Source: Armatimonadota bacterium (lineage in GTDB: Bacteria; Sysuimicrobiota; Sysuimicrobiia; Sysuimicrobiales; Sysuimicrobiaceae). From it: a stretch of 38,239 nucleotides of DNA. Shown here piece after piece: positions 1,252 to 37,759 of this stretch. The translations under genes were made by a program, and so were the position numbers. How positions within the stretch are numbered: position 1 is the stretch's first letter; every line of letters starts with the position of its first letter. The notes beneath the pieces are model-generated. The model was not told the origin of the DNA and made no database searches. It worked only from the letters and a program-made list of their open reading frames with translations. The stretch covers positions 1-38,239 of the forward strand of contig JANXBY010000031.1 of NCBI GenBank assembly GCA_025060455.1, given 5' to 3'.

Positions 1252-1265
1252 GCAAGGAGCGTGCC
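1252..1265 (-). promoter_or_regulatory. Sigma-54 (-24/-12) promoter for MCP1
   Basis: On the minus strand the site reads CGGCACGCTCCTTGCA, with GG and GC exactly 10 nt apart. The predicted start of transcription is near 1240, giving a 5' leader of about 44 nt before the GTG at 1196. It is one of eight near-identical sites in the window. The sequence match is seen directly; activity is inferred. Confidence 0.8.
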
Positions 1266-1361
1266 GGACGCGCGCCGGCGCCCTCGTCCCGACCGGGTGC
1301 GGTACTGGCGGGCGGCGACCCAGCCGGCCGCCCCCGAGCCGGTCACCGACCTCGGTGTTGA

Positions 1362-13201: not shown

Positions 13202-14174
13202 GGCCAGAGGGTTCCTCCCGGCTCAGGATCTGGACCGCCAGCCGCCTGCCCACACGGCCCGGTCGGCCCCGGAACACCACCGCGCCCTCCACCAGCACCT
13301 CCAGGGGCGCGTGGGCGGGCCGGTCCAGCGGGATCACGTCGTTGGGAGCCAGCCCCACCAGGTCGCCCACGCTCACCTGGGCGCGGCCCAGGCGCACCTG
13401 CACGGGCACCGTCACCTCCTCCACGGTGTGCCGCAGGGCCTCCGCCTGGCTGGCCCGGGAGGGCGCCCGGAACAGGGTGGTGGCGCTCAGCAGGCTCAGG
13501 ATGGGCTGCAGGAGCAGGTACGGTAGGCACAGGTTCATGCGGTAGGCCTGCTGCGGTGTCTCCACCTGGAAGTGCACCAGGAGCACCACGTCCGTGGGGC
13601 CCGCGATGTGCGCGAACTGGGGGTTGGTCTCCATCCCCACCAGGACGGGGCGCACGTCCACCACGGACTGCCACGCGTCGTGCAGCAGGGGTAGCAGCCG
13701 CTGCATGAGGCGCTCCACCAGCCCCCGCTCCAGCTCCGTAAGGGGTCGGGCCAAGCCGTCCGCGCGGCCCGGCCCGCCCAGCAACCGGTCCACCACGGCC
13801 AGGGCGAATGTCCCGCCCAGCTCCAACAGGGCCCGGCCCTCCAGGGGCTCCAGCCGGAACAGCACGATCACGGTGGGTGTGGGGATGGACCGGACGAACT
13901 CCTCGTAGCTGAGCTGCTCCACCGCCCGCACCGTCACGTTCACGGGAAATCGCAGGTGCACCGACAGCGCCATCCCCGCCATCCGCGCGAACGCCCCGTG
14001 CAGGATCGATACCGTCCGCAGCTGGTCCTTGGAGAACCGGTCCGGCCGGCGGAAGTCGTACGGCCGCACCGAGGAGCCCCGGGAGGGCTGCGCGGCCTCC
14101 ACGGGCACCTGGCCCGCCTGGATGGCTGCCACCAGCTGGTCGATCTCCGCCTGAGAGAGCAGCTCGCCCGTCAT
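13194..14174 (-). CDS. fliM: Flagellar motor switch protein FliM
   Basis: Switch-ring protein that binds CheY-P and changes rotation. It has 326 residues from ATG 14174, overlapping the fliL stop as ATGA. The N-terminal CheY-binding peptide is present (LLSQAEIDQLVAAI), followed by VRPYDFRRPDRFSKDQLR. The middle domain contains LRFPVNVTVRAVEQLSYEEF and ALAVVDRLLGGPG, and the C-terminal SpoA domain contains VSVGDLVGLAPNDVIPL. Length is normal. Confidence 0.96.
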   Translation of the reverse strand: MTGELLSQAEIDQLVAAIQAGQVPVEAAQPSRGSSVRPYDFRRPDRFSKDQLRTVSILHGAFARMAGMALSVHLRFPVNVTVRAVEQLSYEEFVRSIPTPTVIVLFRLEPLEGRALLELGGTFALAVVDRLLGGPGRADGLARPLTELERGLVERLMQRLLPLLHDAWQSVVDVRPVLVGMETNPQFAHIAGPTDVVLLVHFQVETPQQAYRMNLCLPYLLLQPILSLLSATTLFRAPSRASQAEALRHTVEEVTVPVQVRLGRAQVSVGDLVGLAPNDVIPLDRPAHAPLEVLVEGAVVFRGRPGRVGRRLAVQILSREEPSGHA

Positions 14175-14617
14175 TGCGCCACGAACTCCGAGAAGTACAC
14201 GCCCTCCACGTGGAAGTGGTTGGTGTCCTCGCCGTTCAGGCGCTCCACCAGCTCCCGTTCCATGCGCCTGCGGCCCTGGGGGGTCCGCAGCTCCGAGTAC
14301 CGCTGCCCCGTGAGGTACCGGACCACGGCGTCCTGCCACCGGAACTTCTCCTCCGCGGCCGCCTCCTTGAGGTGCTCACCCGCGAGGGGCGTCTTAACCC
14401 GCAGGGCCAGGGTCACCTTCAGGTAGCGGAACCCGTCCGCGGGGTCCAGGTTCACCACCAACGTTCCCAGCGGCACCACCGCGTGGTTCAGCTTGGGTTC
14501 GGCGTTGCGGGGCCTGGCGAGCAGGGCTCCGGCTGCCGCCGCGGCCACCAAGAGGCCGACCGCGGCCGCCACCAGCCCGAGCTTTGCCGCCCCTCGATCC
14601 GTGGACTGCGTCCGCAT
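14171..14617 (-). CDS. fliL: FliL basal-body-associated protein
   Basis: Single-pass protein that surrounds the stator and supports torque. It has 148 residues from ATG 14617, with GGAGG seven bases upstream. A membrane helix (about 14-33, LGLVAAAVGLLVAAAAAGAL) is followed by the extracytoplasmic domain with LGTLVVNLDPADGFRYLKVTLAL and a C-terminal HFHVEGVYFSEFVAQ. It begins a new unit: a sigma-54-type promoter sits in the 49-nt gap after motB. Confidence 0.92.
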   Translation of the reverse strand: MRTQSTDRGAAKLGLVAAAVGLLVAAAAAGALLARPRNAEPKLNHAVVPLGTLVVNLDPADGFRYLKVTLALRVKTPLAGEHLKEAAAEEKFRWQDAVVRYLTGQRYSELRTPQGRRRMERELVERLNGEDTNHFHVEGVYFSEFVAQ

Positions 14618-14642: not shown

Positions 14643-14656
14643 GCAAGTTCCGTGCC
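14643..14656 (-). promoter_or_regulatory. Sigma-54 (-24/-12) promoter for fliL-fliM-fliY-fliOPQR
   Basis: The minus strand reads CGGCACGGAACTTGCA, an almost perfect -24/-12 match, in the 49-nt motB-fliL gap. Transcription is predicted near 14631, just before the fliL ribosome site, giving a very short leader of about 14 nt. Confidence 0.82.
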
Positions 14657-14666
14657 GGAAGGGCGG

Positions 14667-26861: not shown

Positions 26862-28259
26862 CTACACCGCCGCTTCGGAGAGCGCCGCGGCGCGGCGGCG
26901 CGCCCGGGCGGACGGGATGCCGGCCAGCTCCCGGTACTTGGTCACCGTCCGCCGTGCCACCCCGAACCCCTCCGCCCGCAGCCGCGCGGCCAGCTCCTCG
27001 TCGGTGAGGGGCGAGGACGGATCCTCGGAGGCCACCAGCTCGCGGATCCGCTCCCGCACGGGCAGGCTGGCGTCGAAGAACACCTCGAAGGGCACGACCC
27101 GGCCGTCCGGCATCTGCACGAACTTGCCTGCCAGCGCCCGGCTCACCGTGGACTCCCACACTCCCAGGACTTCCGCGAGGCGGCTGAGGGTGATGGGCCG
27201 TAGGTAGGCGGGCCCGCGGTCCAGGAAGTCCCGCTGGTAGCGCACCAGGTAGTCCGCGCACCGGTACAGCATGGCGTTGCGGCGGCGCAGGGCCTCCACG
27301 AACAGCCGTCCCCTGCGGACTTGCGCCCGCAGCCGCTCGCGCTCCTCCGGCGTGAGACCGCCGCTGAGGAGCGCCTGCCGCACCAGGGGGTGGATGCGCA
27401 GCTGCGTGGCCGCCGCGGCCACCAGCTCCACCCGGTAGCCGTCCTCGGTCCGGTACACCGCCACGTCTGGGATGGCCAGCTCCTCCGGCCGCACTCGGTC
27501 GCCTCCGTGCTCCGCATAAAACGCGTCCGCGGGGTGGGCCACCAGGTGGCGTCGGATGTACCGGACCGCCGCGTACACCTCCTCCACCCGGACGCCCAGG
27601 GCTGCCGCGGCCGCGCCGTACTGGCCCCTGCCCAGCGCGTCCAGGTGGTTTGCGACCAGGGCCTGCGCCAGGCGCCGCTGCGGGCAGTCCGGGGCCCGCT
27701 CCAGCTGCAGCTGCAGGCACTCCCGCACGTCCCGGGCACCGACGCCCGCGGGCTCGCAGCTCTGCAGGGCCCGCAGGGCTTCCTCCACCGTGTCCGGCGG
27801 CAGGCGCAGCTCCGCGGCCACGTACGGGAGGTCCGCGTCCAGGTAGCCCCGCTCGTCCACGTAGCCCACCAGGTGCAGGGCCGCGCGCAGCACCACGGGG
27901 TCGCGCACGTTCACCCGCAGCTGCGCTTCCAGGGAGTCCAGCAGGTTCGCCGGCGCCGGGGTGCGATCCACGGCGGGCGGCCGCTCTTCTTCCGCCGGTG
28001 CGACGCGGCGTTCGGACCGGAGGCGCCAGGGAGCCAGCCACGAGTAGCCGCACACACCGCAGGTCACCCCTTCGACGGGCCGGCCGCACTGCGGGCAGGG
28101 AGTCGGGACGCGTTCCAGCACCGGGTTTTCCTCCAGCTCCCGCTCCACCCTTGCCAGCAGCTCTGCCACCGCCAGCGGCAGCACCGCGTTCACCGCGAGG
28201 ACAGTCTGAAGGGCCCGCGCCTCCACCGCGGGCAACTGGACCGGACGCAGTTCCACCAT
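26862..28259 (-). CDS. rpoN: RNA polymerase sigma-54 factor RpoN with a CxxC-CxxC insert
   Basis: Sigma-54, which recognises -24/-12 promoters and needs an AAA+ activator. It has 465 residues from ATG 28259; a GTG two codons upstream is possible but would sit too close to GGGGAGGG. Region I is divergent but ends in ELLARVERELEENPVLE. Next comes a four-cysteine motif (Cys55, 58, 67, 70; CPQC and CGVC) not found in standard sigma-54. The core-binding and HTH regions follow (GYVDERGYLD, EPAGVGARDVRECL, then ITLSRLAEVLGVWESTVSRAL). The RpoN box reads ARRTVTKYRE (about 435-444). It lies after cheY with a 78-nt gap and just before flgB. Confidence 0.95.
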   Translation of the reverse strand: MVELRPVQLPAVEARALQTVLAVNAVLPLAVAELLARVERELEENPVLERVPTPCPQCGRPVEGVTCGVCGYSWLAPWRLRSERRVAPAEEERPPAVDRTPAPANLLDSLEAQLRVNVRDPVVLRAALHLVGYVDERGYLDADLPYVAAELRLPPDTVEEALRALQSCEPAGVGARDVRECLQLQLERAPDCPQRRLAQALVANHLDALGRGQYGAAAAALGVRVEEVYAAVRYIRRHLVAHPADAFYAEHGGDRVRPEELAIPDVAVYRTEDGYRVELVAAAATQLRIHPLVRQALLSGGLTPEERERLRAQVRRGRLFVEALRRRNAMLYRCADYLVRYQRDFLDRGPAYLRPITLSRLAEVLGVWESTVSRALAGKFVQMPDGRVVPFEVFFDASLPVRERIRELVASEDPSSPLTDEELAARLRAEGFGVARRTVTKYRELAGIPSARARRRAAALSEAAV

Positions 28260-28337
28260 GGGCACCCCTCCCCTGCGCCAGCTCTGCCAGCGCCGGCCCG
28301 CCCCCCTCGGTGCCGGTGCTGATCCTGTCTGAGCCCT

Positions 28338-31100: not shown

Positions 31101-32489
31101 TCACCTCCAGCCCTCACCGGTGCTCCACCCTGCCTCCGCGACCACCTCTCCCGAGGACAGCGCCTCCGCGAAGGCGTCCACCACCTGCGGGTCGAACTGC
31201 GCGCCCCGCTGCCTCCGCAGCTCCTCCAGGGCCTGCCCCGGCAGCACCGGAGCCCGGTAGCTGCGGCCCGTGGTCATCACCTCATACGCGTCCGCCACCG
31301 CCAGGATGCGGGCGCCCAGCGGGATCTCCTCCCCCGCCAGCCCCATGGGGTAGCCGCGCCCGTCCCACCGCTCGTGGTGGTGCAGCACCCACCGCACCAC
31401 GTCCTCCCCGAACCCCGCCGCGGACAGGATCTCCGCGCCCATCACCGCGTGCCGCTTCACCGTCTCGTACTCCTCCGGCGTGAGGGGCCCGGCCTTGAGG
31501 AGCAGGGTGTCGCTGATGCCGATCTTGCCCACGTCGTGCAGCATGCCCGCCACCCGAAGGTCCGCCAGCTGTACCTCCGACAGGCCCAGCCGGCGGCCGA
31601 TGGCCACCGCGTACGAGGCCAGCCGCTCGCTGTGTCCCCGCAGGGACGCCTCGTGCAGCTCGCACGCATACGCCAGGGCCTCCGTGAGGCGCCGGTTCCC
31701 CTCGCGAAGCCGGTGCAGCAGGTCCAGCTGCACCAACGGCAGCGACGCCACGACCGCCAACACGTCCAGCAGCTCCCGTTCCGCGGGGCCGAAGGGCTCC
31801 CGGTGGGGGTGCCGCAACACCGTGAGCGCACCCACGGGCCGGCCCGCGCTCACCAGGGCCACGGTGGCCGTGCGGCCGTCGTCCGCCTCCGCCCCGGCGG
31901 GTACGGAGGCCAGCCTGCCCGGCACCACGGTCCAGAACCCCTCCGCGGTGTGCACGCCCCGCACTTCCGCCAGTCCCACCACCAGCTCCGCGGCCGCCGG
32001 GCACAGCGTCACCGCCGCGGCGCGGTCCGCACTCACGGTGACGCGGGCGATCTCCGCCAGACGGCGCAGCACCGTCTCGGGGTTGCCGTCCGCGGCCGCC
32101 AGCTCCCTCAACCGCAAAAGCGGCTGCAGCACCTCGCGCCGCGCCGCCTCCTGGACCCGCCGGTGGTGGGCCACCACCCGGCGCACCTCCTCGGCCAGGG
32201 CGTGCCCGTCGGCCGGCGGTACCACCACGCCCGCCGCGCCGGCCCGGACTGCCTCCGCCACGCGCTCCTGCGGCGCCACCGCGACCACGGGCACGTGAGG
32301 GTATCGCACAGCCAGCCGCCGCACCTCGTTCGCTCCCAGCGCCTGCAGGTCCGCCGCCACGGCGTCCGCGTCCCACATTAGGGCCGCCGCCTCCAGCCCG
32401 CATGCGGAACCTGTAGACCGGAACTGCACGCCCTCCACGTCTCCGGCCACCGGCACCGTCCCCACCACCACGCAGCGCAGCGTCTCCAC
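31101..32489 (-). CDS. HD-GYP protein with receiver-like and GAF-like domains
   Basis: Probable cyclic-di-GMP phosphodiesterase. It has 462 residues from GTG 32489. The N-terminal 110 residues look like a degenerate response-regulator receiver without a clear phospho-site. A GAF-like region (about 135-260) follows. The HD-GYP domain is at the C-terminus: HSERLASYAVAIGRRLG, HDVGKIGISD (318-327), and HHERWDGRGYP (371-381) with the GYP motif kept. It is the first gene of the cheW-cheA-cheY-rpoN group, with its own sigma-54-type promoter. Together with the PilZ gene this suggests cyclic-di-GMP control of motility; the enzyme reaction is inferred from intact motifs. Confidence 0.9.
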   Translation of the reverse strand: METLRCVVVGTVPVAGDVEGVQFRSTGSACGLEAAALMWDADAVAADLQALGANEVRRLAVRYPHVPVVAVAPQERVAEAVRAGAAGVVVPPADGHALAEEVRRVVAHHRRVQEAARREVLQPLLRLRELAAADGNPETVLRRLAEIARVTVSADRAAAVTLCPAAAELVVGLAEVRGVHTAEGFWTVVPGRLASVPAGAEADDGRTATVALVSAGRPVGALTVLRHPHREPFGPAERELLDVLAVVASLPLVQLDLLHRLREGNRRLTEALAYACELHEASLRGHSERLASYAVAIGRRLGLSEVQLADLRVAGMLHDVGKIGISDTLLLKAGPLTPEEYETVKRHAVMGAEILSAAGFGEDVVRWVLHHHERWDGRGYPMGLAGEEIPLGARILAVADAYEVMTTGRSYRAPVLPGQALEELRRQRGAQFDPQVVDAFAEALSSGEVVAEAGWSTGEGWR

Positions 32490-32520: not shown

Positions 32521-32534
32521 GCAAACTCCGTGCC
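32521..32534 (-). promoter_or_regulatory. Sigma-54 (-24/-12) promoter for HD-GYP-cheW-cheA-cheY-rpoN
   Basis: The minus strand reads CGGCACGGAGTTTGCA, a very good match, placed immediately after the stop codon of the activator gene. Transcription would begin near 32509, 20 nt before the GTG start of the HD-GYP gene. If it reads through, rpoN itself would be under sigma-54 control. Confidence 0.82.
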
Positions 32535-32535
32535 G

Positions 32536-33720
32536 TCAAGCGGTGCGCGCGCCCAGCCAGCCGTCCACCACCACGTCCGGGGCGTCTACCCACTCGCCCT
32601 GCGCCAGGATCACCGCCCGGTGCACGGTCGCTTCCAGCTCCCGCACGTTGCCGGGCCACGGGTGCTGCCGGAGCCTGTGCAGGGCCGCCTCCGTGAAGCC
32701 CCGCACGGGCTTTCCCGTCTGCCGCCGGTACTTCTGCAGGAAGAAGTCCACCAGCAGAGGCAGGTCCTCCAACCGTTCCCGCAGGGGCGGCAGGTGCAGC
32801 GACACCACGTTCAGGCGGTAGTACAGGTCCTCCCGGAAGGTGCCCTCCCGCACCATCTGCCGCAGGTCCCGGTTAGTGGCCGCGACGATGCGGCAGTCCA
32901 CCCGGATGGGGCGGTTCCCACCCACCCGCTCCACCACCCGCTCCTGCAGCACTCGCAGCAACTTCACCTGCATGCGGGGCGACATGTCCCCCACCTCGTC
33001 CAGGAACAGGGTGCCGCCGTGGGCTTGTTCGAACTTGCCCGGCCGCGCGCCCACCGCGTGGGTGTACGCGCCCTTCTCGTGGCCGAACAGCTCCGTCTCC
33101 AGCAACGTCTCCGGCACCGCTCCGCAGTGCAGGACCACCAGCGGCCCGGAGGCTCTGCGGCTCTGCAGGTGGATGGACCGGGCCACCAGCTCCTTCCCGG
33201 TCCCCGATTCGCCCGTGAGGAGCACCGTGGCGTCCGTGGGGGCCACGATGGACGCCACCCGCAGGACCTCGTGCATGGCGGGCGAGTTGCCCACCACGCC
33301 GTCGAATCGGTACGCGCGGGCCAGGTCCGCCTGCCACCGCGCCCGCTCGCTCTGCTCGTCCCGCACCCGGGCCAGCTGGCGGATCCGCGACAGGGCGGTT
33401 TCGATCCCCTCCGACCCGCTCACCACGTCCGCGGCTCCCGCCCGCACCGCCGCCACCACCTGTGAGACGGTGGGCGAAGGCAGCGCCACCACCACTGGCA
33501 CGTCCGGGAGGCGTGCCCGCACCGCCGCCACCTGTTCGGGGCTGCGGGCCACCACCGCGGTCACCCTCTCCGGGTGCACCACCGCCTCCTCCGACGCCAC
33601 CGCCGCGTGTAGGCCGGCCCGGTGCAGTTCACACCGGAGTTCCTCTAGGAGGTCGTCCAGGGGTTCGAGGAAGAGGACCGTCTCGCGCGCTTCCGTCCGC
33701 CGGGCAGTTCCCGGTTCCAT
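32536..33720 (-). CDS. Sigma-54-dependent activator (FleQ/FlgR-like) without DNA-binding domain
   Basis: AAA+ enhancer-binding-type protein that would open sigma-54 promoters. It has 394 residues from ATG 33720, with AGGAG upstream. Residues 13-115 are receiver-like but lack the phospho-acceptor aspartate (VTAVVARSP where VLLDxxxP is expected), as in FleQ-type proteins. The AAA+ domain has Walker A GESGTGKE (170-177), the loop GAYTHA (217-222, normally GAFTGA), Walker B GTLFLDE (236-242), [10 protein letters not shown] (295-304) and WPGNVREL (355-362). The protein ends about 30 residues later with no Fis-type helix-turn-helix, like Helicobacter FlgR. Its own gene has a sigma-54-type promoter. 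Confidence 0.93.
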
Positions 33721-33838: not shown

Positions 33839-33852
33839 GCAAGATCCGTGCC
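33839..33852 (-). promoter_or_regulatory. Sigma-54 (-24/-12) promoter for the activator gene
   Basis: The minus strand reads TGGCACGGATCTTGCA, the best match to the consensus in the window, 5 nt after the MCP2 stop codon. The predicted leader to ATG 33720 is about 107 nt, much longer than those of the other units, and contains two inverted repeats. Confidence 0.87.
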
Positions 33853-33856
33853 ACGG

Positions 33857-35587
33857 TCACACCTGGAACCGGGCCACCACCCGCTCCAGTTCCTCCGCCA
33901 CCCTCGCCAGGCGTTGCGCGCCGCCCGACATCTCGTGGGTGCTGGCGGAGATCTCCTCCACCGCCGCGCCCACCTGTTCCGCGGAGGCGGAGTTCTGCTG
34001 GGCGGTCTCCAGCAGCTTGCGCACCGTGGCCTCGATCTGCTGGGCGCTGGCGGACAGTTGCTGGGTGGCCGCGGACACTCCTTCCGTCCGTCCCGTGACG
34101 TCCGCCACGCTGCGCCGGATGCGCTGGAACGCCTCGCCCGCCTCGTCCGCAAGCCGCACGCCCTGCTGGACCTCCTGCACGCCCCGCTCCATGACGCGCA
34201 CCGCCCGCTGTGTCTCCTCCTGGATCTCCCGGACGATCTCCGCGATCTGCTCCGCCGCCTGCGCGGACTCCTGGGCCAGCTTGCGGACCTCCTCCGCCAC
34301 CACCGCAAATCCCCGGCCCTGTTCGCCGGCCCGCGCCGCCTCGATGGCCGCGTTCAGGGCCAGGAGGTTGGTCTGGGAGGCGATCTCGGTGATCAGACCC
34401 ACGATGCGGCCGATGTTCTTGCCCTTCTCCCCCAACACCGAGACCACCTGGGCCATCTCCTCCGCGGCGTGGCGGATCTCGCCCATGGCCTGCACCACCC
34501 GCTCCACCCGCGCGGCGCCCTCCGAGGCGGCCTCGTTGGCCTGCTGGGCCGCCTGCGCGGTCTGGCTGGTGTTGCCCGCCACCTCCTCCAGACTGCGGCT
34601 CACCTGCTGCACCGTCTGGGTGGTCTCGTGCACGCTGCGGGCCTGCAGCTCCGCGCCGCTGGACACGTCCTGCACCGCCCGCGCGATCTCCGACGCGCTG
34701 CGGGCCACCTGGTCGCTGGTCGCAGCCACCTGGCGGGACGCGGCGGCCACCTCGCCCGCGCTGTCGCGCAGCTGCTCCACCATGGCCCGCAGGGAGTCCA
34801 CCGCGCCCTGGAGGCCTGCGGCCATGCGTCCCAACTCGTCCTGGCCGTGCACCGCCACCCGGTGCGTCAGGTCGCCGCGGCTCAGGGCTGCCACCGCCTC
34901 CTCCACCGCCCGCACCTGCGCCACCAGGCGCCGCGTGGTGGACCACGCGAACACCCCAGCGATCACCAAGCCGACAACCAGCACGCCTACAATGTTGCGG
35001 TGGAGGCTCCGCTCGAGGGCCGCGACCCGCTGGTCCCGCGCCTTGGCGTGCTGGGCCAGCTGGTCCTGCAGCTGGTCCAGCTGCTCCCGGGCGGGGTCGA
35101 ACGTCCCGCGGACCTTCTGCCGTCCCTGCTCCAGGGCGTCCCCCGACGTCAGGAGGCCCTGTTCGTATTGAGCGCGCAGGCTGCGGATCTCGTCGCCCCA
35201 CGTACGGACGCCGCTGGCGAACCCCGCGGCCAGCAGCCGGTCGCGCTCCTCTGCCAGGAACTCCTGCGCCTTGGTGGCCCGGTCCACCGCCTGCTGGAGG
35301 TTCTCGTCCATGAACTGGGCCAACTCCTGGTACCGCGTCTTGTTGTTGGGGTCGGTACTCAGCAGGGCGTAGAAGGCCGAGAGGGCCTGGTAGGCGTCCC
35401 GGTCCGCCTGCAGCACGTGGTCCAGGGCCTCCGTCTGCCGCTGCACCACCGTGAGCTCCGCCTGCAGCCGGTCCACGGCCCGCAGGGCCGTCACGCCGTT
35501 GGCCACCACCAGCGCCCCCAGCAGCCCCAGGGTGACCAACAGCTTCCACCGGACTGGCCAGTCTGCCACGCGCAACCACCGCTTCAC
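33857..35587 (-). CDS. Methyl-accepting chemotaxis protein (MCP2)
   Basis: Complete chemoreceptor of 576 residues from GTG 35587, chosen for GGAGGTGAGG eight bases upstream; an in-frame GTG at 35602 is less likely. The first membrane helix (about 15-33, [17 protein letters not shown]) and second (about 200-222, [16 protein letters not shown]) enclose a roughly 165-residue, mainly helical sensor domain like a four-helix bundle. HAMP follows ([13 protein letters not shown]), then a long coiled coil with the signalling tip [20 protein letters not shown], followed by [18 protein letters not shown]. There is no C-terminal CheR/CheB tether. The ligand is unknown. Confidence 0.95.
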
Positions 35588-35624
35588 GCGCCTCACCTCC
35601 ACGCGACGTTCTGCTACAGGACCT

Positions 35625-35638
35625 GCAACCTCCGTGCC
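35625..35638 (-). promoter_or_regulatory. Sigma-54 (-24/-12) promoter for MCP2
   Basis: The minus strand reads CGGCACGGAGGTTGCA, between the fliT-like gene and MCP2. The predicted start of transcription near 35613 gives a 26-nt leader that contains the GGAGG of MCP2. Confidence 0.84.
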
Positions 35639-35641
35639 GGC

Positions 35642-35962: not shown

Positions 35963-36342
35963 GACACCGTCCCCTGGGAGCGCAACTGCCGGTCGGCCTG
36001 CTGCCAGGCGTCCTTCAGGTCCACCAGCCAGCCCCGGACGCGTTCCAGCTCTCCGGCGTCGCGGCGCCTGCGGGCGTCCGCCAGCCGCTCGAACATGAAC
36101 CGGTACAGGGCCAGCAGCCGGCCGGCGAGGTCGTACCGCAGGTCCAGGGAGGCCATGAGCTCTAGGAGGATCCGCTCCGCGCGGGTCACCGCCTGGCCCG
36201 CGGCGTCCGAGTCCCCTGCCCGGTACGCGCGCGCGGCCTCCTCCAGGAAGCGCGCCGCGCCCTCGTACAGCATCACCACCAGCTGGCCCCCAGACGCCGT
36301 GGACGCGTGGAAGGACCGGTAGGCAGAGGCAACCTGCTTCAC
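35959..36342 (-). CDS. fliS: Flagellin export chaperone FliS
   Basis: Cytoplasmic chaperone that keeps flagellin unpolymerised. It has 127 residues from GTG 36342, overlapping the fliD stop as GTGA. The N-terminal helix (AYRSFHASTASGGQLVVMLY) and EGAARFLEEAARAYRAGD are the classic FliS signature; LMASLDLRYDLAGRLLALYR and a C-terminal LVDLKDAWQQA follow. Length is normal. Flagellin itself lies two genes upstream, at the right edge. Confidence 0.94.
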   Translation of the reverse strand: MKQVASAYRSFHASTASGGQLVVMLYEGAARFLEEAARAYRAGDSDAAGQAVTRAERILLELMASLDLRYDLAGRLLALYRFMFERLADARRRRDAGELERVRGWLVDLKDAWQQADRQLRSQGTVS

Positions 36343-37679
36343 CGGCGATCCCCCCCGAGCCGCTGGATCTGTCGGCTCAGCCAGTCGCCCTGGGACCGCA
36401 GCTGGCCGAGGCTCCTCTCCAGCTCCGTGAACATGCGGACGAGCCGCTCCCGCTTGCGCTCCACCCGGTCCTCCCACCGCGCGATCTGCTGGTCGTAGGT
36501 GCGGATGCGGCTGTTGAGCGCGTCCACGGCCCCCCACACGGGGCCCCCCGGCTTGGTGAGCCCGTCTGACACCTCCCGCAGCCGGGCGCCCGCGGCCTCC
36601 AGCACCCGCCGTGCTTCGTCAAACCGGCCCTGCAGGGCGTCGGAGAGCTTCGACTCGTCCAGCGTGAGCCTGCCGTCCCGGCCCACCCGCACCCCCAGGT
36701 CGCTGAGCCGCCTGAGGGCCTGGTCGGCCACTTCCGTGCGGAGGACCGCGTCCGGCAGCTGGGCTTGGATCCGCTGGAGGGTCCCGTCGCCCTGCAGGGC
36801 CCCGCGCTGCCTGGTGTTTGGGTCGTACCTCCCGTACTGGCTGAGGGCGTCTGCGACGTCGTTGTACGCGGCCACGAACTCCCGTACCGCCCTTTTGACC
36901 GCTTCCACGTCCTGCTCCACGGTCACGGTGGCCGTACCGGCAGCCGCGAGCGCCAGGGTGACTCCCGGCAGGAGGTCCGTGACCAGGTTGGTCGGACGGT
37001 GCGCCGTCACAGCCCCGCTGCCCGTACCCAACACCACCTCGGCGTCCTGGGCCGGGCTGACCTCGTGGGGGAAGCTCAGCGCCTGCGCCCCACCCACCAG
37101 GCCGCTGGCGTCCACGGACACCGCCCCCGCCTGGCCGGAGGTCCTGGAGGTGACCAGCAGGCGGTAGCCGCCGTGCACGTGGACCACCGCGGCGTACACG
37201 CCCGCGCCCGCGGCGTTGATGGCCGCCGCGATCCCCGAGAGGGAGTTCTGGCCGTCTGCCACGGTGATGTCCTTGGAGCTGCCGTTGACGGTGACGGTCA
37301 AAGTGCCGGTGCCGAACACGAGGGCGTCCTTGTCCGCAACGGTCTCGGTGCTCAGCTGGTGGGCAGAAGCCAGCCGGCTGACGGTGACGGTGTAGGTGCC
37401 GGGTGGAGCGCCCGGGACCGCGGAGGCCACCACAACCCGGGTGTCGCTGCTGGTAGCCCTGGCAGCCTGGTAGGTGAGGTCCCTTGCCAGGGCCGCGGCC
37501 CGCTCTTCGAGGGCGGCGAGCTTGCTGTTCAGGGCCCGCCACGCGGAAAGCTTCGCGTCGGCGTCGCCCTTCCGGGCCTGCAGCTTCCGGACCGGCGCCC
37601 GCTCGATCTCCAGCAGCTTGTTGATGACCTCCGTGGTGTTCAGGCCCGAGACCAATCCGTCGACGCTCAACGTGGACAC
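36339..37679 (-). CDS. fliD: Filament cap protein FliD
   Basis: Cap that folds flagellin at the filament tip. It has 446 residues from GTG 37679, with GGAGGAGG upstream. The N-terminus (VDGLVSGLNTTEVINKLLEI) and the FliD_N coiled coil are typical. The middle has repeated beta-rich modules (PPGTYTVTVSRLASAHQL, DGQNSLSGIAAAINAAGAGV). The C-terminal part has VREFVAAYNDVADALSQYGR, LSDLGVRVGRDGRLTLDES, and a final coiled coil. It begins the fliD-fliS-fliT-like unit. Confidence 0.95.
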   Translation of the reverse strand: MSTLSVDGLVSGLNTTEVINKLLEIERAPVRKLQARKGDADAKLSAWRALNSKLAALEERAAALARDLTYQAARATSSDTRVVVASAVPGAPPGTYTVTVSRLASAHQLSTETVADKDALVFGTGTLTVTVNGSSKDITVADGQNSLSGIAAAINAAGAGVYAAVVHVHGGYRLLVTSRTSGQAGAVSVDASGLVGGAQALSFPHEVSPAQDAEVVLGTGSGAVTAHRPTNLVTDLLPGVTLALAAAGTATVTVEQDVEAVKRAVREFVAAYNDVADALSQYGRYDPNTRQRGALQGDGTLQRIQAQLPDAVLRTEVADQALRRLSDLGVRVGRDGRLTLDESKLSDALQGRFDEARRVLEAAGARLREVSDGLTKPGGPVWGAVDALNSRIRTYDQQIARWEDRVERKRERLVRMFTELERSLGQLRSQGDWLSRQIQRLGGDRR

Positions 37680-37733: not shown

Positions 37734-37747
37734 GCAAGGACCGTGCC
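37734..37747 (-). promoter_or_regulatory. Sigma-54 (-24/-12) promoter for fliD-fliS-fliT-like
   Basis: The minus strand reads CGGCACGGTCCTTGCG in the 80-nt flaG-fliD gap. GG and GC are 10 nt apart and only the last base of the -12 box deviates. Predicted transcription near 37722 gives a leader of about 43 nt. Confidence 0.8.
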
Positions 37748-37759
37748 GCACCTCTCACA

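Follow-up and report, generated by a model that had tools for sequence, protein, structure and literature searches.

A predicted zinc ribbon behind region I of a flagellar sigma-54 from Sysuimicrobiota

The mechanism of sigma-54 (RpoN; PF00309, PF04963 and PF04552) is understood from a few Proteobacteria. Classical members of the family combine region I, a core-binding domain, a helix-turn-helix and the RpoN box ARRTVTKYRE with GG-N10-GC type promoters and a nearby AAA+ activator gene, and all of these have counterparts at the locus described here, region I being assigned there by alignment and the promoters as predicted sites. The difference lies just behind region I. Classical proteins reach the core-binding domain through nothing but a flexible, often acidic region II, and among 29 rows sampled from the classical clade none has a CxxC pair close to region I. 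In E. coli-type systems, the activator pulls the sigma-54 N-terminus into the pore and unfolds RI-H1, and how this unfolding of region I is limited or ended is stated to be open (PMC9770992, PMC12054792). Region II, the least conserved part, passes into the polymerase close to the beta flap, from the surface directly behind region I (PMC10786286). The closest precedent for the element reported here is FlgZ (HP0958, DUF164) of Helicobacter pylori, a zinc-ribbon protein that protects RpoN (PMC3372290). Its four-Cys ribbon also serves sigma-54 of a flagellar system, yet FlgZ is a separate, trans-acting protein that contains a coiled coil and has its CxxC pairs further apart, whereas the ribbon of our locus lies inside sigma-54 itself. 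The sequence-only reading of this DNA knew of no described example, and our full-text literature search, with subscription papers and supplements outside its scope, likewise found no description of a zinc ribbon inside sigma-54.

The window, i.e. the whole stretch of DNA analysed, comprises 38,239 nucleotides of a host genome of 2.26 Mb in 80 contigs. This genome falls into a small, uncultured phylum that has a single order and is partly found in hot springs. The genus HRBIN32 is part of CSP1-3 (PMC12416667), a group now called Sysuimicrobiota, and flagellar genes occur in its families Sysuimicrobiaceae and Thermofontiviventaceae (PMC11604079). The flagellar sigma-54 copy of the window (rpoN-like; 26862..28265, minus strand) was delimited as an open reading frame with Pfam matches to the core-binding and DNA-binding domains and encodes 467 aa when read from a GTG, although the ATG at 28259, with GGGGAGGGG ahead of it, is the likelier start. 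The core-binding domain (residues 104-292; 27390..27956, minus strand) matches PF04963 (Sigma54_CBD) with 129.5 bits against a cut-off of 22.9 (E 1.6e-37), and the DNA-binding domain (residues 312-458; 26892..27332, minus strand), which contains the RpoN box at residues 437-446 (26928-26957), matches PF04552 (Sigma54_DBD) with 126.1 bits against 22.8 (E 1.4e-36). The N-terminus with region I (28113..28265, minus strand) was assigned by alignment and an AlphaFold model; region I itself covers residues 13-51, forms two helices (13-28 and 33-46) and ends in ENPVLE. Its match to PF00309 (AID) is weak, with 19.1 bits against a cut-off of 23.8, which the second sigma-54 copy (25.3 bits) and relatives (33-45 bits) exceed; region I aligns over its entire length. 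The protein is a sigma-54 of the working type, and in the PDB the full-length model matches structures of sigma-54.

Before the sigma-54 gene come cheW, cheA and cheY, and after it a likely flagellar rod gene (a sub-threshold Pfam match); fliF, fliG, fliH, a fliI-like ATPase gene, fliL and fliD also lie in the window. An AAA+ sigma-54 activator of the enhancer-binding protein type (32536..33720, minus strand; PF00158, E 1.5e-71) is encoded 4.3 kb upstream of the sigma-54 gene and has the loop GAYTHA. The activator loops are variants of GAFTGA and were missed by a search for the exact motif. The genome's one further strong activator gene lies next to the second sigma-54 gene, and this arrangement points to two sigma-54/activator pairs, one of them for motility. 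The flagellar activator stops directly behind the AAA+ lid; no C-terminal DNA-binding domain was found in it, its N-terminal part matches no Pfam family, and it may activate from solution.

Predicted -24/-12 sites of the form YGGCACG-N4-TTGC occur near sigma-54's own genes, six times in the window, where 0.08 would be expected, each time on the coding strand, and 21 times genome-wide against one in a reversed control. In the window, where all six lie on the minus strand, they stand ahead of the activator gene (33839..33853; TGGCACGGATCTTGC) and upstream of an HD-GYP gene at 31101-32489 (32521..32535; CGGCACGGAGTTTGC), a chemoreceptor gene at 33857-35602 (35625..35639; CGGCACGGAGGTTGC), fliD at 36339-37679 (37734..37748; CGGCACGGTCCTTGC), fliL at 14171-14617 (14643..14657; CGGCACGGAACTTGC) and a NIT+HAMP receptor gene that the contig end truncates (1252..1266; CGGCACGCTCCTTGC). 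These six strict sites ahead of motility genes make up a clean candidate regulon. As a separate observation, the flagellar sigma-54 copy has Q in place of the proline that matches E. coli P17 in 6/6 genomes of family f1 with two sigma-54 genes, while the proline is kept in nearly all sigma-54s, the second copy included (L170-L174 compared); P17 is required for contact with the activator. In f1, all six flagellar activators have GAYTHA instead of GAFTSA or GAYTGA, and on the sequences the two exchanges look like a partner-specific co-divergence of the two sigma-54/activator pairs.

About six residues behind region I begins the motif C-P-Q-C-G-x7-C-x2-C-G (CPQCGRPVEGVTCGVCG; residues 57-73, 28047..28097, minus strand), the predicted zinc ribbon. 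In GTG numbering its Cys codons are those of C57 (28095-28097), C60 (28086-28088), C69 (28059-28061) and C72 (28050-28052), which become residues 55, 58, 67 and 70 when counted from the ATG. The sequence-only reading had thus placed its CxxC-CxxC zinc knuckle correctly, after region I and ahead of the core-binding domain, residue numbers included, and the loss of the cysteines in close relatives, by which it proposed to judge the idea, did not appear. Indeed, both CxxCG knuckles are conserved, and the four Cys and the two Gly that follow are found in 16/16 sigma-54 proteins of Sysuimicrobiota families f1, f3, f4 and f6, with the Cys also invariant in further relatives. An intact reading frame and conserved relatives rule out a one-off artefact or frame error behind the motif. 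These four are the only Cys columns kept in all ribbon-bearing rows (the next best reaches 16/36), a count that is partly circular in that such rows were defined by the motif itself. From the mean Cys content of ribbon-less sigma-54s (0.55%), the chance of such a motif just behind NPxLE is roughly 4e-8. The reading had further set the element in the place of an acidic region II; a ribbon does stand behind region I, but it precedes rather than replaces the acidic linker, as a short DEDFDP-like stretch follows it in most relatives, while the flagellar paralog of the window has largely lost this stretch.

The CPxCG...CxxCG knuckle pattern resembles that of the double zinc ribbon and Zn_Ribbon_3 families (PF12773, PF13248), and sub-threshold Pfam matches of both fall on the motif (DZR, E 0.0015-0.11; Zn_Ribbon_3, E 0.013). 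Every such match is, however, far below the curated cut-off; DZR reaches 13-19 bits against 27.3, which for so short a motif is weak evidence against membership. The structure prediction that the sequence-only reading had called for gave a small ribbon with short strands: the AlphaFold2 model has pLDDT values of 86, 82 and 72 for residues 51-60, 61-70 and 71-80, hence 82-86 over residues 51-70, with a shallow input alignment of 23 rows and a pTM of 0.52. The N-terminal model superposes over 20 residues at 1.0-1.1 Å on the zinc knuckles of Nop10 and aIF2-gamma with E above 1, and a Foldseek search with it returned no significant E-value, so that the fold match is suggestive. AlphaFold models the motif confidently as a small ribbon, and zinc binding by it is predicted as very likely.

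Within Sysuimicrobiota, the ribbon also occurs in the second sigma-54 of the host genome, and most f1 genomes have two sigma-54 genes, which share about 44% identity and both carry it. The sigma-54 of family f2 has an acidic linker instead of a ribbon. No sigma-54 was found in the genomes searched of families f5 and f7, two of the latter nevertheless containing strong sigma-54 activator domains (G039:C4:3057-3554 and G021:C10:1455-1958). This distribution bears on an unlikely alternative by which the ribbon would shield sigma-54 in cis from proteolysis or heat, much as FlgZ, whose CxxC motifs are needed to keep RpoN from rapid turnover (PMC3372290), does in trans. Several ribbon hosts come from hot springs, as such a stability module would suggest, but the ribbon is present in an apparent lake-water member (L055/G008) and missing in f2 of the same phylum, which also speaks against a hot habitat alone as the explanation, as first suggested from the sequence. 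Moreover, the context of the FlgZ fold is different: a coiled coil plus DUF164 with CxxC-x18-26-CxxC (PMC3372290), as opposed to a gap of 8 residues inside sigma-54.

To look beyond this phylum, we searched 386 genomes, apparently ~1-3 per phylum-level lineage, with a profile that spans region I and the ribbon. Region I was detected in 166 of them, and among the matches listed it ran through the ribbon only in Sysuimicrobiota and five other lineages (G057/G204/G297, G161/G292, G183/G310, G287 and G428). Searches of whole phyla found the ribbon in 3/3, 7/7 and 3/4 and, in the largest phylum searched (50 genomes), 14 matches through the ribbon next to other families with ribbon-less sigma-54. 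Unbiased ribbon counts are those of Sysuimicrobiota f1/f3/f4/f6 (16/16), of one phylum with 7/7 genomes and of another with 3/3. The searched phyla do not overlap and G428 belongs to none of the others, and therefore at least six phyla have the ribbon. One candidate, L081, was rejected as a ribbon sigma-54; it is a VWA plus FHA-like protein with a CPRCG...CPRC ribbon of its own. In the carriers, the CxxC pairs are 8 to 10 residues apart and their distance to NPxLE is almost always identical.

CxxC zinc sites can be redox switches, and zinc-containing, redox-sensing anti-sigma factors offer a model for a sensor, as which the ribbon had also been proposed from the sequence; oxidation or zinc loss would then unfold it and switch sigma-54 activity. 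The four-Cys site is, however, kept at almost the same spacing, and with no further conserved Cys, in two paralogs per genome and across six phyla, and its CxxCG...CxxCG form is typical of structural knuckles. A sensor role thus fits less well, and we regard it as very unlikely, with docking (see below) and stability in cis as the live rivals.

For the history of the ribbon, we calculated a tree from the part after the ribbon only (352 columns, N-terminus excluded). It is unrooted; its ribbon-less rows were chosen from the best region I matches, and a long branch leads to the G183 group. In this tree, a branch with support 98/97 sets apart 23 ribbon-less sigma-54s of many lineages; across it lie all ribbon carriers together with f2 and f11, the two groups on that side that lack the ribbon. 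Constraining the carriers to a single clade, with no losses, is rejected (AU p 0.0015), and three changes of state suffice, i.e. a single gain or loss deep in the tree and two losses later on. Because the carriers group together in a tree made without the N-terminus, we consider common descent more probable than a separate insertion in each phylum. The relationships imply that the ribbon is an old trait of a deep sigma-54 branch and was lost at least twice; since f2 and f11 do without it, the branch does not depend on it. The f11 sigma-54s L079 and L137 (G046 and G194, of another phylum) are ribbon-less inside the ribbon-bearing group, an independent loss.

The position of the ribbon invites comparison with the N-terminal zinc ribbon of TFIIB/TFB, which likewise stands ahead of a linker entering the polymerase cleft. 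The TFIIB ribbon is N-terminal, that of sigma-54 lies behind the activator-binding region I, and the likeness is one of position. By analogy, the sigma-54 ribbon could dock on the RNA polymerase surface, near the beta flap or protrusion, or on upstream DNA, and so position region I. It precedes a cleft-entering linker as the TFIIB ribbon precedes the B-reader (modules: PMC12445709), and the N-terminal part of region II enters RNA polymerase between the beta protrusion, the flap and the sigma-54 HTH (PMC10786286). Against docking, the ribbon shows no conserved surface patch across phyla beyond Cys and Gly (five invariant columns, of which four are Cys) and was lost twice, and we consider such a role rather improbable.

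We tentatively favour a structural zinc ribbon, a fixed module of a deep sigma-54 branch, that acts as a hard boundary. The structural reading draws on the four-Cys and Gly pattern, the near-constant spacing and the deep clade recovered without the N-terminal region. The ribbon lies at the border between the inhibitory, activator-threaded region I and the remaining region II, the linker into RNA polymerase. A small fold locked by metal, lying some six residues after region I, is well placed to stop threading or to anchor the linker, and could confine activator-driven unfolding to region I and hold the linker outside the polymerase cleft; in this scheme, the ribbon would sense nothing. We infer this stop or anchor function from the position of the fold; classical sigma-54s, however, end unfolding without any ribbon, which counts against a stop. 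The broader idea that sigma-54 consists of two ancient branches, of which the ribbon branch in at least six phyla physically ends AAA+ threading while the classical branch has no such stop, is doubtful at present.

In a survey that covers 1,414 organisms of 16 phyla, we found no mention of a deep split of sigma-54 in the main text (PMC12316311). The ribbon-bearing sigma-54 is a variant within a known family, with a testable mechanism. The distribution of the ribbon suggests a deep split in the sigma-54 family, and, with a folded metal module predicted at the border of region I, this natural branch would provide a direct test of how unfolding is limited.
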